NCBI GenBank assembly: GCA_008501585.1
Contig: QQUN01000027.1
Coordinates: 1 to 64,000, forward strand
Length of the DNA: 64,000 nucleotides
Direction of reading: 5' to 3'
Source of the DNA: Pseudomonadota bacterium
GTDB taxonomy: Bacteria > Pseudomonadota > Gammaproteobacteria > Burkholderiales > Rhodocyclaceae
How positions within the stretch are numbered: position 1 is the first letter of the stretch; every line of letters starts with the position of its first letter. This document shows, in pieces, positions 27,320-33,481 of this stretch. The translations under genes and the position numbers were made by a program. The notes under the pieces were generated by a model, which ran no database searches, was not told the origin of the DNA, and worked only from the letters and a program-made list of their open reading frames with translations.

Positions 27320-27940
27320 ATGACAAATACCAACTCCACACGCACACACCCATCCACCCCGACCCTTGCGCAGCGCGCCGCCAAAGGCCTCGATGCCGTG
27401 GTCGGCGGCCTGTGCTCGGCGGCAATGGCCATGTCCGCGCTGGCCTTGATCGCCTCGCTCGGCATGGTCGTGTACTCGGTGGTGATGCGCTACATCTTCA
27501 ATGTCCCGCAGACCTGGGTCGATGACCTGGTCGGCTTCCTGCTGGTGGCCATAGTCCTGCTCGGCGCCGGCGACGTGATGCGCCGCGGCGAGCACATCGG
27601 CGTGGACCTGCTCACCAGCCGGCTGGGCCCGAGGGGGCAGCGCATTGCCGCCATCTGGTCGTTGCTCGCAGTGCTCGTGACCGCCGCGATGTTCGTCGTC
27701 GAGGGCTGGGAGACGGTGAGCTTCTCGAAGATGCTCGGCATCGTGTCGCAGGGGCATCTGGAAGTGCCGATCTACATTGTCCAGCTCGCGGTGCCGATCG
27801 GCGGTGCCTTGTTCGGCCTCGCGGCGCTGGTGGCGCTGCTGCGCACCGCGCTCGGCGAGGACGTGCGGGTGAGCCGCGGGGAGTCCGCGGTGGGCGGTCA
27901 CGACCCGGATGGAGAATCGCAAGACGGAGCACGCTCATGA
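27320..27940 (+). CDS. dctQ: TRAP transporter small permease subunit (DctQ family)
   Basis: This is a 206-aa four-helix membrane protein, the small subunit of the TRAP permease. Four hydrophobic segments lie at about 35-60, 72-92, 112-132 and 155-180. The central segment has VVMRYIFNVPQTWVDDLVGFLL, typical of DctQ. The N- and C-termini are polar. Start ATG 27320 is chosen over 27275; the ribosome site is weak, suggesting low expression relative to dctP. The stop overlaps dctM by 4 bp. Confidence 0.9.
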   Translation: MTNTNSTRTHPSTPTLAQRAAKGLDAVVGGLCSAAMAMSALALIASLGMVVYSVVMRYIFNVPQTWVDDLVGFLLVAIVLLGAGDVMRRGEHIGVDLLTSRLGPRGQRIAAIWSLLAVLVTAAMFVVEGWETVSFSKMLGIVSQGHLEVPIYIVQLAVPIGGALFGLAALVALLRTALGEDVRVSRGESAVGGHDPDGESQDGARS

Positions 27941-29229
27941 CCTTCTTCCTGCTGCTGCTGGGGGCCTTGCTCCTGCTCCTCAGTGGACTGCCGATCTTCG
28001 CCGGGCTGGCGCTGTTCGGTGGCACGCTGACCTTCCTGACCCAGGGCGACCTGGGCGCACTGGGCGAGATCGTCTTCGGCAAACTCAACCACTACCTGCT
28101 GGTCGCGATTCCGCTCTTTGCGCTGATGGCGCACATCATGATCCGCGGCAAGCTGGTCGATGACCTGTACGGCGCGGCCTTCACCTTCACCCGTCATTTG
28201 CCGGGCGGTATTGGCATTGCCACCGTGCTGGCGTGCACCATCTTCGCGGCCATCTCGGGTTCGAGCGTCGCCACCGCACTGACCATCGGTGCCGTGGCCA
28301 TCCCGCAGATGATCCACTACGGTTACAGTCCGCGCACCGCCTATGGGCTGGTGGCGGCCGGGGGAACGCTCGGCATCCTCATTCCGCCTTCCGGGCCGAT
28401 GGTGCTCTACGGCGTGATCACCGAGTCATCGATCGGTGCGCTGTTTGTCGCTGGCATGGTGCCGGGCCTGCTGCTTGCAGCGATTTTCTGCGCCTGGTGC
28501 ATGTTCGACGCGCGCTGGCGCGGGCGCGGCCTGCGTACCGAGCCGCGCGCGACCTTGCCGGAACTTCTCACCGCATTGCGTCGCGCGTTCTGGTCCCTGA
28601 CCCTGCCGGTGCTGGTGCTTGGCGGGATGTACCTGGGCGTGTTTACCGCCACCGAGGCCGCCGGCGTCGGAGCCATGGCCGCGCTGCTGATCGCGGTGCT
28701 CGCGTATCGCAACTTCGGTATCGGCGACCTGTGGCACGCCGCGCTCGACGCCAGTCGGACCTCGGCAATGCTGTTCATGATTCTCGCCGGGGCGAGCATC
28801 TTCGGCCACGTGCTGACCAAGCTGCGCATCCCGCAGGAGATCGTCGGCCTGGTTGCGCAACACGGCATCGGCATCGCCGAATTCCTGCTCGTCGCGATGC
28901 TGCTGATTTTCGTGCTCGGCATGTTCCTGGAAACCATCTCGATCATCCTGATCACCACGCCGGTGATCCTGCCGGTGATGCTGCACCTGGGCATCAACCC
29001 GGTGTGGTACGGAGTGCTGCTGATGATCAATCTGGAACTGGCACTGATTACGCCGCCGGTGGGCATGAACCTGTTTACCATCAAGGCGATCAGCCGGGCA
29101 CCGATGGGTGAGATCGTGCGCGGTGTCATCCCCTACGTGTTCCTGCTCATCCTGGCGCTGGTGCTGGTCGCCGCGGTACCGTCGATCGCGCTGTGGCTGC
29201 CGGGGACGATGTTCCGGATCGGCAACTGA
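27937..29229 (+). CDS. dctM: TRAP transporter large permease subunit (DctM family)
   Basis: This 430-aa protein, with about 12 hydrophobic helices, is the sodium-coupled transport subunit. Conserved family stretches include LFALMAHIMIRGKLVDDLY, TIFAAISGSSVATAL, AAGGTLGILIPPSGPMVLYG and LELALITPPVGMNLF. It starts within the dctQ stop (ATGA), so the QM subunits are coupled. Together with dctP this is a complete tripartite transporter for the island's substrate. A 354-bp gap follows before the next operon. Confidence 0.93.
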   Translation: MTFFLLLLGALLLLLSGLPIFAGLALFGGTLTFLTQGDLGALGEIVFGKLNHYLLVAIPLFALMAHIMIRGKLVDDLYGAAFTFTRHLPGGIGIATVLACTIFAAISGSSVATALTIGAVAIPQMIHYGYSPRTAYGLVAAGGTLGILIPPSGPMVLYGVITESSIGALFVAGMVPGLLLAAIFCAWCMFDARWRGRGLRTEPRATLPELLTALRRAFWSLTLPVLVLGGMYLGVFTATEAAGVGAMAALLIAVLAYRNFGIGDLWHAALDASRTSAMLFMILAGASIFGHVLTKLRIPQEIVGLVAQHGIGIAEFLLVAMLLIFVLGMFLETISIILITTPVILPVMLHLGINPVWYGVLLMINLELALITPPVGMNLFTIKAISRAPMGEIVRGVIPYVFLLILALVLVAAVPSIALWLPGTMFRIGN

Positions 29230-29519: not shown

Positions 29520-29559
29520 CCGTCACACCTCCGCAACCCCACTGTCACATCCCTGACAC
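29520..29559 (+). promoter_or_regulatory. Tandem Pho-box array (PhoB site) ahead of plcP-like operon
   Basis: Four 7-bp units lie in exact 11-bp phase: CCGTCAC (29520), CCGCAAC (29531), CTGTCAC (29542) and CTGACAC (29553). The last two with their 4-bp spacer match the PhoB consensus CTGTCAT-N4-CTGTCAT at 11 of 14 positions. The site ends 24 nt before the start codon. A CACACT -10-like hexamer lies 10 bp downstream (29570-29575), the spacing used at PhoB-activated promoters. Confidence 0.78.
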
Positions 29560-29583
29560 CGCCGCTGCCCACACTGCGCAGCA

Positions 29584-30375
29584 ATGCGCTGGAAAACCGT
29601 TTTTCTCTCCGATATTCACCTGGGCACGCGGGCCTGCCAGGCCGATCGGTTGCTCGACTTCCTCCGTCACCATCCCTGCGAGCGTCTGTACCTGGTCGGT
29701 GACATCGTCGATTTCTGGGCCATGTCGCGCAGCATCCACTGGTCGGCGCAGCAGAACACCGTGGTGCAGAAGGTATTGCGTATGGCGCGGCACGGGACGC
29801 AGGTGGTGTTCATCCCCGGCAATCATGATGAGGCGTTGCGTGACTATTGCGGCACCTCGTTCGGCGATGTGCAGTTGCTGGAGGAGACCATCCACACCAC
29901 GGCCGACGGCCGGCGCTTGCTGATTGTGCACGGCGATGCGTTCGACCAGGTGACGCGGCATCACCGCTGGGTCGCGGTGCTGGGCGACATGGCCTACAAC
30001 ACGCTGGTGCGGCTCAACATCTGGCTGTCGCGCGCGCGGCGCCTGCTGGGCATCAGCGGCTACTGGTCGCTGGCCGGCTACGCCAAGCAGAAGGTGAAGA
30101 AGGCGATCGACTTCGTGTTCGATTTCGAGGATTCGGTCATCCACCATGTGCGCGACCGCGGCCTCGACGGGGTGGTCTGCGGGCACATTCACTGGCCAAC
30201 GATCAAGACCGTCGACGGCACGCTGTATGCCAACTGCGGCGACTGGGTGGACTCCTGCTCGGCGCTGGTCGAAGACGACAGCGGCACGCTGCGCGTGGTG
30301 CGCTGGGACCCGAGCATGGCGCGTCCGGCGGCCGAGCCTGCGCCCCACAAGGAGGATGCCGAATGCGTGTCCTGA
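29584..30375 (+). CDS. plcP: PlcP-like metallophosphoesterase (candidate phospholipase C)
   Basis: This 263-aa calcineurin-like phosphoesterase of the LpxH-related COG2908 group has motifs SDIHLG (D10, H12), VGDIVDFW, PGNHD, VHGDAFD and GHIHWPTIK. The central region YWSLAGYAKQKVKKAIDF and the C-terminal CGDWVDSCSALVEDD resemble PlcP, the Mn-dependent phospholipase C that converts phosphatidylcholine, -glycerol and -ethanolamine to diacylglycerol during phosphate starvation. Lipid A enzyme LpxH is shorter and lacks this tail. Two downstream genes (glycosyltransferase, DAG kinase) use diacylglycerol, and a Pho-box array precedes it. The ATG lies only about 8 nt beyond the predicted -10, so the mRNA may be leaderless. 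Confidence 0.82.
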   Translation: MRWKTVFLSDIHLGTRACQADRLLDFLRHHPCERLYLVGDIVDFWAMSRSIHWSAQQNTVVQKVLRMARHGTQVVFIPGNHDEALRDYCGTSFGDVQLLEETIHTTADGRRLLIVHGDAFDQVTRHHRWVAVLGDMAYNTLVRLNIWLSRARRLLGISGYWSLAGYAKQKVKKAIDFVFDFEDSVIHHVRDRGLDGVVCGHIHWPTIKTVDGTLYANCGDWVDSCSALVEDDSGTLRVVRWDPSMARPAAEPAPHKEDAECVS

Positions 30376-31568
30376 TGTTGAGTGATGTGTATTTCCCGCG
30401 CATCAACGGGGTGTCGACCTCGATCGAGACCTTTCGCCGGCAGTTGCCAGAGCATGGGGTGGCGACGACCTTGCTGGCGCCGGATTATGGCGGCGAGGCC
30501 ACGGCCGCGGTCGAGGCGGACATCCTGCGCATCGCCGGCCGGCCGGTGCCCGGCGACCCGGAAGACCGCATCATGCGCTGGCGCGAGGCCTGTCGCGCGG
30601 TCGATGCGTTGCCGCTGGCCGATTACGACGCCATCCATATCCAGACGCCGTTCCTCGCCCACCACCTGGGCAGCCGCCTGCGCCGCAAGACCGGGCTGCC
30701 GACGGTGGTGACCTACCACACCCTGTTTGAAGACTACCTGCACCACTACGCGCCATGGGCGCCCCGTGTGGCACTGCGCGCGCTGGCCCGGCGGCTGTCG
30801 CGCCAGCAGTGCAATGCGGTCGATGCGGTGATCGCGCCGTCCTCGGCCATGGCCGAGCGGCTGCGGGCCTACGGGGTGTGCCAGCCCATTCACATCCTGC
30901 CCACCGGCATCCCGGTGGCGCACTACGCCAAGGGCAATGGGCGGCGCTTTCGCGCGCGTCACGGCTTCAACGCCGAGCGCCCGCTGGCGCTGTATGTGGG
31001 GCGGCTGGCCTTCGAGAAAAACCTGCACTTTCTGCTCGATGTGGCCGAGCAGTTGCGCCAGAAGCAGTCGCCCGCGCGCATCCTGCTGGCCGGCGACGGG
31101 CCGGCCAATGCGCCGCTGCGCGAAGCGGTCAAAAGCCGCGGGCTGACCGACTGCGTGGCCTTTGTCGGCTACCTGTCGCGCGAAGACGAACTGCCCGACT
31201 GCTACGCGGCGGCCGATGCCTTCGTGTTCGGCTCCAAGACCGAGACGCAGGGACTGGTGCTGCTCGAAGCGATGGCGGCCGGTGTGCCGGTGGTGTGCCT
31301 GGCCGAGATGGGCGTGCGCGACGTGGTGGCCGATTGCCCCGCCGCGCGCACCCCGCCGGACGAGGCCGGCGCCTTTGCCGAGGCGCTGATCGATCTGCTC
31401 GCCGACCCGGCCCGGAAGACCACGCTCGCCGCCGCCGCCCGTGCGCACGCTGCCGAGTGGTCCGACGCGGCCATGGCCGCGCGGCTGGCCACGCTGTACC
31501 GACAACTCGCCGCCCCCGGCGCCCGACCCATCCCCGGAGATCTGCATGGAAAGCCCGTTCAAGGGTAA
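30363..31568 (+). CDS. agt: GT4 glycosyltransferase, candidate diacylglycerol glycosyltransferase (Agt-like)
   Basis: This is a 401-aa GT-B fold family 4 retaining glycosyltransferase. The N half opens MRVLMLSDVYFPRINGVSTSIETF, typical of lipid- and mannosyl-type GT4 enzymes. The C half has VGRLAFEKN and the EX7E motif in KTETQGLVLLEAM. It overlaps the PlcP-like gene by 13 bp. In phosphate-limited bacteria, the plcP-linked GT4 enzyme Agt glycosylates diacylglycerol to a phosphorus-free glycolipid. That is the preferred role here, but alternatives such as phosphatidylinositol or exopolysaccharide glycosylation are not excluded by sequence. Confidence 0.83.
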   Translation: MRVLMLSDVYFPRINGVSTSIETFRRQLPEHGVATTLLAPDYGGEATAAVEADILRIAGRPVPGDPEDRIMRWREACRAVDALPLADYDAIHIQTPFLAHHLGSRLRRKTGLPTVVTYHTLFEDYLHHYAPWAPRVALRALARRLSRQQCNAVDAVIAPSSAMAERLRAYGVCQPIHILPTGIPVAHYAKGNGRRFRARHGFNAERPLALYVGRLAFEKNLHFLLDVAEQLRQKQSPARILLAGDGPANAPLREAVKSRGLTDCVAFVGYLSREDELPDCYAAADAFVFGSKTETQGLVLLEAMAAGVPVVCLAEMGVRDVVADCPAARTPPDEAGAFAEALIDLLADPARKTTLAAAARAHAAEWSDAAMAARLATLYRQLAAPGARPIPGDLHGKPVQG

Positions 31569-31914
31569 GACCGGCCTGCGCCGGTTGATCAACGCCTTTG
31601 GTTACTCGATGAACGGCCTGGCCACTGCCTTTCGTGTCGAAGACGCCTTCCGCCAGGAGGTGCTGCTCGCCGCCGTGCTCATTCCGCTGGCGCTGTGGTT
31701 CGAGATCAGTGGCATCGAGCGCGCCATGCTGATTGCCAGCGTGATGCTGGTACTGGTGGTCGAGCTGCTCAACTCCGCGGTCGAAGCCACGGTCGATCGC
31801 GTCTCGCTCGACAGCCACTCGCTGGCCAAGCGGGCCAAGGACATCGGCAGTGCCGCGGTGTTCGTGGCGCTGGTCAACGCCGCCATTGTCTGGGGCGTGG
31901 TCCTGCTCGGCTAA
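31546..31914 (+). CDS. dgkA: Diacylglycerol kinase
   Basis: This 122-aa integral membrane kinase turns diacylglycerol plus ATP into phosphatidate. It has three membrane helices and the family signature ELLNSAVEATVDRVS followed by AKRAKDIGSAAVF. The start ATG 31546 has GGAGA upstream and overlaps the glycosyltransferase by 23 bp, so it is third in the operon. It could recycle diacylglycerol left over by the PlcP-like enzyme. Confidence 0.95.
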   Translation: MESPFKGKTGLRRLINAFGYSMNGLATAFRVEDAFRQEVLLAAVLIPLALWFEISGIERAMLIASVMLVLVVELLNSAVEATVDRVSLDSHSLAKRAKDIGSAAVFVALVNAAIVWGVVLLG

Positions 31915-31929: not shown

Positions 31930-32274
31930 TCAGATGCCGTTGGCTTCCGTCCAGTGGCGCAGCTGGTCGAGGACCGACAGCGCGCTGCGTCCGGCGGCCG
32001 TCATCTCATAGGCCACCGCCACCGGCCGGGTGCTGAGCACCTCGCGGCGCACCAGCCCATGCGCCTCCAGCTCCTTCAGGCGCTGGTCCACCATCTTCTT
32101 GCTCGCGCCACCCAGCTGGCGGGCAAGCTCGTTGAAGCGCACCGGGCCGTCCTTCAGGTGCCATAGCACCGAGCCGGTCCATTTGCCGCCGAGCACGCGC
32201 ATGCCACGCTCGATCGGGCACGGTTCGTTGCAAGCGGTTTTCTGAAGGTCATGCGCGGTGGTGGGGGCATTCAT
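31930..32274 (-). CDS. HxlR-family regulator, likely electrophile/redox sensor
   Basis: This is a 114-aa winged-helix protein. The family marks are CPIERGMRVLGGKWTGSVLWHLKDGPVRFNELAR. Two N-terminal cysteines (C15, C19 in KTACNEPCPIE) resemble the redox cysteines of YodB/QorR-type HxlR sensors. It is divergent from an Old Yellow Enzyme, a typical target of quinone- or electrophile-responsive HxlR proteins. Start ATG 32274 (MNAPTTAH) is preferred to the longer frame at 32310. Confidence 0.9.
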   Translation of the reverse strand: MNAPTTAHDLQKTACNEPCPIERGMRVLGGKWTGSVLWHLKDGPVRFNELARQLGGASKKMVDQRLKELEAHGLVRREVLSTRPVAVAYEMTAAGRSALSVLDQLRHWTEANGI

Positions 32275-32301
32275 GTGAGGCTCCGGGGTACACAAAAACA
32301 A

Positions 32302-32336
32302 GGTTACCAAAATACCACTGGTTGATATTTGTTACC
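32302..32336. promoter_or_regulatory. Candidate HxlR operator
   Basis: GGTTACCAAAATA (32302-32314) and TATTTGTTACC (32326-32336) are imperfect inverted repeats centred on a second dyad ACCACTGGT (32314-32322). It lies in the 124-bp divergent spacer and would cover both promoters. Confidence 0.55.
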
Positions 32337-32398: not shown

Positions 32399-33481
32399 AT
32401 GACCTCATTGTTTTCCCCGCTCCAGGCCGGCGCCCTGACGCTGCCCAACCGCATCCTGATGGCGCCGCTGACCCGCACCCGCGCCGAGGCCGGCCATGTG
32501 CCCGGCGCGCTGATGGCCACCCACTATGCCCAGCGCGCCAGCGCCGGGCTGCTCATCGCCGAGGCCACCATGGCCATGGAAGGCACCTCCGCCTTCTGGA
32601 AGGAGCCCGGCATCTATTCCGAGGCGCAGATCGCCGGCTGGCGCCAGGTGACCGACGCCGTGCATGCCGCCGGTGGCCGCATCGCGCTGCAGATCTGGCA
32701 CGCCGGCCGCGCAGCGCATCCGCTGCTCAACGACGGCCGCCAGCCGGTGTCGTCCAGCGCCGTGGCCATTGCCAACGACGAAGTCCACACCCCGCAAGGC
32801 AAGCAGCCCTACACCGTGCCGCGTGCGCTGGCCGACGACGAGATCCCCGCCATTGTGGCCGGCTTCGCGCAGGCCGCGGCCAATGCCAGGGCGGCCGGCT
32901 TTGACGCGGTGGAGGTGCATGGCGCCAACGGTTACCTGCTCGACCAGTTCCTGCGCGACGGCGTGAACACGCGCGAGGGCGCCTACGGCGGCCCGATCGA
33001 ACACCGCGCCCGCCTGCTGCTGGAGGTGCTCGAGGCCGTCATCGGTGTGTGGGGGAGCGATCGGGTCGGCCTGCGCCTGTCGCCACTCAACAGCTACAAC
33101 GACATGATCGACAGCGACCCCGTCGGCCTCGTCACCTGGCTGGCCAAGCGCCTGAACGACTACGACCTGGCCTACCTGCACCTGATGCGCGGTGATTTCT
33201 TCGGCAAGCAACACGGTGACGTGGCCACGCCGGTGCGCGAGCACTACAACGGCGTGCTCGTCGGCAACATGGGCTACACCCCGACCGAGGCCGGCGCCGC
33301 CGTGGCCGCGGGCCTGCTGGACGCCGTCGCCTTCGGCACCAGCTTCCTCGCCAACCCCGACCTGCCGGCACGCATCGCCGCCGGGGCCGAGCTCAACGCG
33401 CCGAACCCGGCGACGTTCTACACGTCCGGCCCCGAGGGCTACATCGACTACCCGTCGATGGAGGCGGTCGAAGCGGTGTAA
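32399..33481 (+). CDS. nemA: Old Yellow Enzyme-family alkene reductase
   Basis: This is a 360-aa FMN-dependent ene-reductase of the NemA/OYE1-like group (N-ethylmaleimide, 2-cyclohexenone, nitroester reduction). Typical features are MAPLTRTRAE, QIWHAGRAAHP, the substrate-binding pair in EVHGANGYLLDQFLRDGVNTR and GNMGYTPTEAGAAVAAGLLDAVAFGTSFLANPDLP. The family is about 360-370 aa, matching here. It is divergent from the HxlR gene and probably derepressed by electrophiles. Confidence 0.93.
   Translation: MTSLFSPLQAGALTLPNRILMAPLTRTRAEAGHVPGALMATHYAQRASAGLLIAEATMAMEGTSAFWKEPGIYSEAQIAGWRQVTDAVHAAGGRIALQIWHAGRAAHPLLNDGRQPVSSSAVAIANDEVHTPQGKQPYTVPRALADDEIPAIVAGFAQAAANARAAGFDAVEVHGANGYLLDQFLRDGVNTREGAYGGPIEHRARLLLEVLEAVIGVWGSDRVGLRLSPLNSYNDMIDSDPVGLVTWLAKRLNDYDLAYLHLMRGDFFGKQHGDVATPVREHYNGVLVGNMGYTPTEAGAAVAAGLLDAVAFGTSFLANPDLPARIAAGAELNAPNPATFYTSGPEGYIDYPSMEAVEAV

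Follow-up and report, generated by a model that had tools for sequence, protein, structure and literature searches.

Does a diacylglycerol kinase belong to the machinery that remodels bacterial membrane lipids under phosphate starvation? The question is raised by a 64,000-nucleotide stretch of a Rhodocyclaceae genome (contig QQUN01000027.1 of assembly GCA_008501585.1, positions 1 to 64,000; hereafter the window), in which genes for a PlcP-like metallophosphoesterase (plcP), a GT4 glycosyltransferase (gtA, or 'agt') and a diacylglycerol kinase (dgkA) follow an array of Pho-type units. An earlier note on this DNA had placed the three genes in one overlapping operon, and they do lie head to tail on the same strand, with plcP overlapping gtA by 13 bp and gtA overlapping dgkA by 26 bp. 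We consider it likely that this operon is a PhoB-type unit for phosphate-starvation membrane lipid remodelling in which DgkA recycles surplus diacylglycerol. Gene families, linkage and promoter geometry are read directly from the sequences, and activities and fluxes are carried over from sections of the reports on characterised systems (PMC8528852; PMC9239053; PMC5082522; PMC4796936).

The esterase scores above the cut-offs of both PF00149 (44.3 bits) and PF12850 (46.9 bits), as expected of a calcineurin-type phosphoesterase, and residues D10, H12, D40, N80, H116, H201 and H203, which we take to be metal ligands, are invariant among the proteins aligned. It was compared with 11 other plcP-locus proteins and with the LpxH of its own genome, a set outside which the characterised SMc00171, MED193_17359 and PA3219 fall; identity was 49–70% to the former and 29% to the latter, and the motif GNHDE stands where the host's LpxH has GNRDF. 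This grouping is one of identity, motif and model score, rather than of a tree with many LpxH proteins. The closest solved structures by sequence are of LpxH, a member of the same metallophosphoesterase superfamily, so an operon devoted to lipid A synthesis had to be considered; however, the window protein reaches just 57.6 bits with TIGR01854, the model for LpxH, far under the cut-off of 190.35, and a separate true LpxH (262 bits on that model) is encoded on contig C13 of the same genome. Together with the low identity to that protein, these scores rule LpxH out as far as sequence allows and leave a lipid A role with hardly any probability. The identification as PlcP-like, not LpxH, is thus well supported by sequence, in agreement with the earlier note, and the placement with LpxH that the note had named as refuting it failed. 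The best named relatives of the window's plcP come from Rhodocyclales and other betaproteobacterial assemblies. Among the sampled relatives, one genome has a plcP interrupted by two in-frame stops (G014:C7:19944-20681, L021) as well as a stop-free copy on its contig C57. Another locus (G387:C84, L147) is 84% identical to the window in plcP and 79% in gtA despite a different genus label, and the other sampled member of that genus label (G333) is 65% identical in plcP; transfer or a misplaced contig is suggested for L147.

The array ahead of plcP consists, as had been described, of four 7-bp units in exact 11-bp phase (Table 1), and the Pho-box likeness claimed for its last pair holds with one mismatch to CTGTCAYNNNNCTGTCAY. 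A four-unit comb with 11-bp spacing scores 23/28 at this position, a value reached in 0/2000 dinucleotide shuffles, and no second place on either strand of the window scores 21 or more. The four units are kept in L110 (93% PlcP identity) and in L147, with different spacers. Across 27 plcP upstream regions, about one per genus label and chosen without regard to the presence of a Pho box, the same 11-bp comb is found at 22/33/44/55 nt before the ATG, with mean unit scores peaking at 33, 44, 22 and 55. The comb excess in these regions is 0.885, against a maximum in dinucleotide shuffles of 0.46 at that period and 0.60 at any tested period, and a maximum of 0.66 under register-breaking shifts; the observed value was reached in 0/1000 shuffles and 0/1000 shifts. 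A scan of the 4.29-Mb genome with the consensus pattern, a check that the note had proposed, gave a divided answer: five sites lie at one mismatch from the pattern and none at zero, but at up to three mismatches the counts (256 + 300) are close to those of a reversed-pattern control (265 + 256), so that only near-consensus sites are informative and the looser count was not used as evidence. That looser count is also what might favour a chance repeat; since the array is unique in the window, is not matched by shuffles, and is conserved in register and with its -10 in other genera, we reject this explanation as extremely improbable. Membership of the operon in the Pho regulon is well supported on sequence grounds by the Pho box, the PhoB-type spacing to the -10, conservation and the presence in the genome of PhoB (363.8 bits, over cut-off); PstS is also present.

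The geometry downstream of the array suggests how transcription would start. In the 15 of the 27 promoters that have a clear three-unit array, bases 11–16 past the last unit conform to xAxxxT, with A at +12 in 14/15 and T at +16 in 14/15, and this hexamer ends 6–8 nt before the ATG in 13 promoters and 9 and 11 nt before it in the remaining two. The gap from Pho box to -10 is similar in E. coli PhoB promoters. A -10 hexamer adjoining the ATG would put the start site on or next to that codon, and a leaderless or nearly leaderless plcP mRNA is therefore predicted; plcP is probably read from such a PhoB-dependent message. No Shine-Dalgarno-like motif is found at the plcP start in the window sequence, unlike those of gtA and dgkA, and such motifs occur at 2/27 plcP, 12/20 gtA and 9/15 dgkA starts. 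A search at title level turned up no paper describing comparable leaderless Pho promoters.

Table 1. Features of the plcP–gtA–dgkA operon and its immediate neighbours in the window.
Feature	Position	Strand	Description
plcP	29584-30375	+	PlcP-like metallophosphoesterase, 263 aa; predicted to convert phospholipid to diacylglycerol
gtA ('agt')	30363-31571	+	GT4 glycosyltransferase, 402 aa
dgkA	31546-31914	+	diacylglycerol kinase, 122 aa; one of two genome copies
Pho-type array	29520-29559	+	four 7-bp units, 11-bp phase; kept in relatives
Array units	29520-29526, 29531-29537, 29542-29548, 29553-29559	+	CCGTCAC, CCGCAAC, CTGTCAC, CTGACAC
Predicted -10 hexamer	29570-29575	+	CACACT; 10 bp past last unit, 8 nt ahead of plcP ATG
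Shine-Dalgarno-like motif for gtA	30350-30355	+	AGGAGG, within plcP; from sequence
Shine-Dalgarno-like motif for dgkA	31536-31539	+	GGAG, within gtA; from sequence
TRAP transporter gene (DctM)	27937-29229		upstream of the operon; profile match
HxlR-type regulator	31930-32310	-	downstream, convergent with the operon; profile match

The same genome contains a second locus of this type. On contig C34 (locus L065:6999-9936) a near-consensus Pho site lies between divergent olsBA-like genes and a gene for a second GT4 protein of lipid type, gtB. This site and the plcP promoter account for two of the five one-mismatch sites in the genome. Towards gtB there are four units, which end 23 nt before its ATG and are equalled in 0/2000 shuffles, and towards olsB there are three or four (3/2000 shuffles for the three-unit form and 7/2000 for the four-unit form). 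The OlsB-like gene product scores 172 bits on NF052554 (cut-off 350) and over cut-off on PF13444, and the OlsA-like product 143.5 bits on NF052553 (cut-off 300) and over cut-off on PF01553. Since Pho-type units face both gtB and olsB, a shortage of phosphate probably induces the synthesis of sugar lipids and of ornithine lipids at the same time, judging from these promoters. With the conserved plcP promoter and PhoB, this olsBA/GT4 locus makes Pho-type control and a role in phosphate-starvation lipid remodelling, both claimed from the outset, well supported by sequence. The remaining one-mismatch sites (C56:10725, C64:57929 and C70:131787) were checked by coordinates and open reading frames and given no role; that at C64:57929 lies directly before an open reading frame that looks by eye like a methyltransferase gene.

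The nearest curated families to gtA are lipid-acceptor glycosyltransferases, all under cut-off (GlcN-PG synthase, 123.3 bits with a cut-off of 480; MGlcDAG synthase, 117 bits with a cut-off of 400). A quick GT4 tree with 51 rows resolves three clades, namely gtA, gtB and the plcP-adjacent glycosyltransferase of alphaproteobacteria and Burkholderia; the window's gtA belongs to a 17-row clade (Shimodaira–Hasegawa-like approximate likelihood ratio test, SH-aLRT, 100) apart from the 21-row alphaproteobacterial and Burkholderia clade (99). The tree was built without characterised Agt proteins, so likeness to Agt1 and Agt2 is a matter of position and GT4 family. On both of these the name 'Agt' is apt, but as a statement of orthology to the plcP-adjacent glycosyltransferases compared it does not stand.

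The third gene product is a member of the DgkA family (PF01219, 123.7 bits with a cut-off of 22.3); it aligns over almost its whole length, residues 8–120, to structure 3ze3 (E 1.4e-30), which we take to be E. coli DgkA, and retains the AFRQE, VELLNSA and RAKD blocks. E. coli DgkA phosphorylates diacylglycerol left by another lipid pathway, glucan synthesis. The window protein, of the same family and with the same presumed job, differs in that its diacylglycerol would come from PlcP rather than from glucan synthesis and in that its host has another dgkA copy, which lies on contig C34 and is unlinked to plcP.

The addition of dgkA, which the note had called the less familiar part, proved to recur among the plcP operons of the order. 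Within a family sample of 121 genomes, plcP was found in 82 (E up to 1e-40) and dgkA in 110 (E up to 1e-8), and in 35 of the 82 plcP genomes the two genes lie at most 3.5 kb apart on one strand (dgkA downstream of plcP in 22, upstream in 13), with four more convergent within that distance and four at 3.5–10 kb. Two dgkA matches are present in 16/35 linked and 5/39 unlinked plcP genomes and in 3/29 dgkA-bearing genomes without plcP; with weak matches (E above 1e-20) dropped, a by-eye count of the table leaves 14, 1 and 1, respectively. We read 57 loci, 41 of them with dgkA. The order plcP-gtA-dgkA-gtB occurs in 18 of these (two with an insert) and gtA-dgkA-gtB-plcP in 10, while gtA-dgkA-gtB (3) or dgkA-gtB-gtA (3) faces plcP from the opposite strand in others; seven have other forms, among them the window and L110 as plcP-gtA-dgkA. 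In 31 of the 41, dgkA has gtA and gtB as its immediate neighbours on the two sides, and at least one GT4 match is near in all 41. Beyond the family, 26/140 plcP genomes, from 9/32 families, have a dgkA no more than 6 kb away from plcP, where a rough estimate of chance linkage is about 0.1% per genome.

Among 80 named loci, whose flanks were limited to 5 kb and in some cases truncated, dgkA is near plcP in 24, including loci from Accumulibacter, Dechloromonas and Thauera assemblies and all ten titled Burkholderia or Paraburkholderia. These ten (L214, L215, L221, L225, L228, L229, L234, L241, L243 and L245) have the order plcP-GT-dgkA, with GT the glycosyltransferase gene, and a Pho-box match of 12–13 of 14 lying 201–221 nt before the base that matches PlcP residue 1, as good as which are only 0–2 of 200 scrambled patterns. 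A scan that covered 69 of the 80 named plcP upstream regions found at least 12 of 14 in 17; nine of the ten Burkholderia and Paraburkholderia loci fell outside it. PlcP seems to be longer N-terminally in these loci, so the claim of a constant distance between array and start codon is not carried over to them. Because the GT4 tree splits gtA, gtB and the alphaproteobacterial and Burkholderia protein, the dgkA link occurs with non-orthologous glycosyltransferases. At two loci (L070 and L069) a pair of opposite-strand open reading frames interrupts the operon between gtA and dgkA. A separate Pho-like match is then present 40 nt ahead of dgkA, with 12 of 14 positions in L070 and 11 of 14 in L069, scores that 2% and 6.5% of control patterns, respectively, attain.

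In a 61-row DgkA tree, 7 changes account for the linked label where shuffled labels require 17.6; in a quick tree of 110 rows the figures are 10 and 33.6. Well-supported branches of the latter force only 2 changes and many forks, including the placement of the window copy, lack firm support, so we claim no count of the origins of the link. The host's C34 dgkA falls in a seven-row clade (98/99) made up entirely of unlinked copies, those of G402 and G354 included, and an origin of the window's dgkA by recent duplication of that copy is accordingly not supported. The C34 dgkA and its unlinked counterparts in G402, G354 and G360 lie near one kind of PfkB-family gene, the family having been tested for the host's own gene only.

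The proposed mechanism runs as follows. At low phosphate PhoB would bind the tandem 11-bp units and recruit polymerase to the -10 by the ATG. PlcP would strip phospho-head groups from phospholipids to give diacylglycerol, the activity being that expected of its family, and gtA, aided by gtB from the separate Pho-type locus beside olsBA, would convert diacylglycerol to sugar lipids. Diacylglycerol unused by the glycosyltransferases would be re-phosphorylated by DgkA to phosphatidic acid, a recycling that would prevent diacylglycerol build-up and rebuild a minimal phospholipid pool. Ornithine lipids from olsBA would complete the phosphorus-free lipid set.

Several observations weigh against this account. 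Only 15 of the 27 plcP upstream regions pass the three-unit threshold, the 18-mer matches upstream of gtA-first operons (L127-L139) are mostly weak (8–11 of 14), and the host's own pstS and phoB upstream regions give best 18-mer matches of 10/14 each. The window's gtA falls outside the clade of alphaproteobacterial and Burkholderia plcP-adjacent glycosyltransferases. Shine-Dalgarno motifs are scarce at gtB starts too (1/11), which leaves geometry as the main ground for predicting a leaderless message. Finally, no dgkA lies within 10 kb in 39 of the 82 plcP genomes of the family, fragmented assemblies being counted as none, and dgkA is found in 0/27 loci with alphaproteobacterial names, a class assignment that we take from the organism names; DgkA is therefore no general requirement of remodelling.

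The same two absences are what best fits an arrangement in which PlcP and the glycosyltransferases remodel while DgkA stands outside the flux, handling diacylglycerol from osmoregulated glucans or phosphoethanolamine transferases or being a plain spare copy. We think this unlikely: the link is seen repeatedly and in different gene orders, with dgkA before or after plcP and mostly between two glycosyltransferase genes, it is also made with a non-orthologous glycosyltransferase in Burkholderia-type operons, and where an insert separates dgkA, in L070 and L069, the gene has its own Pho-like match. Alternatively, a cycle of PlcP and DgkA could be the point of the operon, phospholipid passing through diacylglycerol to phosphatidic acid with its head groups changed and glycolipid made as overflow. 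Same-strand dgkA genes 15, 214 and 250 bp from plcP in G376, G224 and G293, with no room for a glycosyltransferase gene, would suit such a cycle, yet none of the 41 dgkA loci read lacks a nearby GT4 match and a pure cycle saves no phosphate, which makes this improbable. Remodelling with recycling of surplus diacylglycerol by DgkA remains our preferred reading. A broader form of it is conceivable but doubtful as a whole, namely that a three-enzyme circuit exists in many members of the order, in which the operon's DgkA would set the split of diacylglycerol between sugar lipids and rebuilt phospholipids, that DgkA was joined to the operon more than once, with non-orthologous glycosyltransferases, and that the operon is launched leaderless from a PhoB promoter in the window's family.

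Much of this layout is already known from the passages available of earlier reports: PlcP–glycosyltransferase operons under Pho boxes, a second glycosyltransferase with its own Pho box (PMC8528852) and a phosphate-depletion-induced diacylglycerol kinase alongside PlcP (PMC5082522). In Pseudomonas aeruginosa, plcP is followed by a glycosyltransferase gene in a Pho-box operon (PA3219-PA3218) and the second glycosyltransferase of the PlcP-Agt1/Agt2 system is encoded elsewhere with its own Pho box (PA0842; PMC8528852, in part). The window and its host share this plan down to the Pho-type units of the second gene, but have dgkA as a third member of the operon and a gtB that shares its promoter region with olsBA. 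PlcP also stands next to a glycosyltransferase gene, as in the window, in SAR11, Erythrobacter, Agrobacterium and Methylosinus, and for the marine clusters a Pho box has been predicted (PMC4796936 and PMC9239053, in part); unlike in those alphaproteobacterial systems, the window's GT4 lies outside the clade of the plcP-adjacent proteins compared, a tree without characterised Agt. Section 13 of PMC4796936, covering six marine plcP arrangements, does not name dgkA. In the proteome of Pseudomonas putida BIRD-1 the diacylglycerol kinase DagK rises with PlcP and OlsAB on phosphate depletion, with neither linkage nor a mechanism for DagK given in the sections available (PMC5082522). The host likewise has PlcP, a diacylglycerol kinase and OlsBA-like genes, here known from genes alone, with its dgkA linked to plcP. 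The available portions of PMC5082522, PMC13086504, PMC12282109, PMC11828411, PMC8528852, PMC4796936 and PMC9239053 do not describe dgkA in a plcP operon, and we found no paper describing it as part of such operons in a partial search that most subscription journals lay outside.

PlcP-Agt remodelling, which has been described in marine alphaproteobacteria, rhizobia, pseudomonads and methanotrophs, is drawn in the sections available of those accounts as two steps. A recurrent, operon-bound diacylglycerol kinase suggests a fate for the diacylglycerol left over and opens the control of this branch point to direct test. Phosphate handling by Accumulibacter, Dechloromonas and Thauera is of practical interest in wastewater, and plcP, a starvation gene, would by its promoter geometry be translated without a leader.

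Around the operon, about 350 bp without an assigned gene separate the TRAP transporter gene from plcP. The HxlR-type gene downstream is divergent from an old-yellow-enzyme-like gene (32399-33481, + strand), named by eye from the list of open reading frames.

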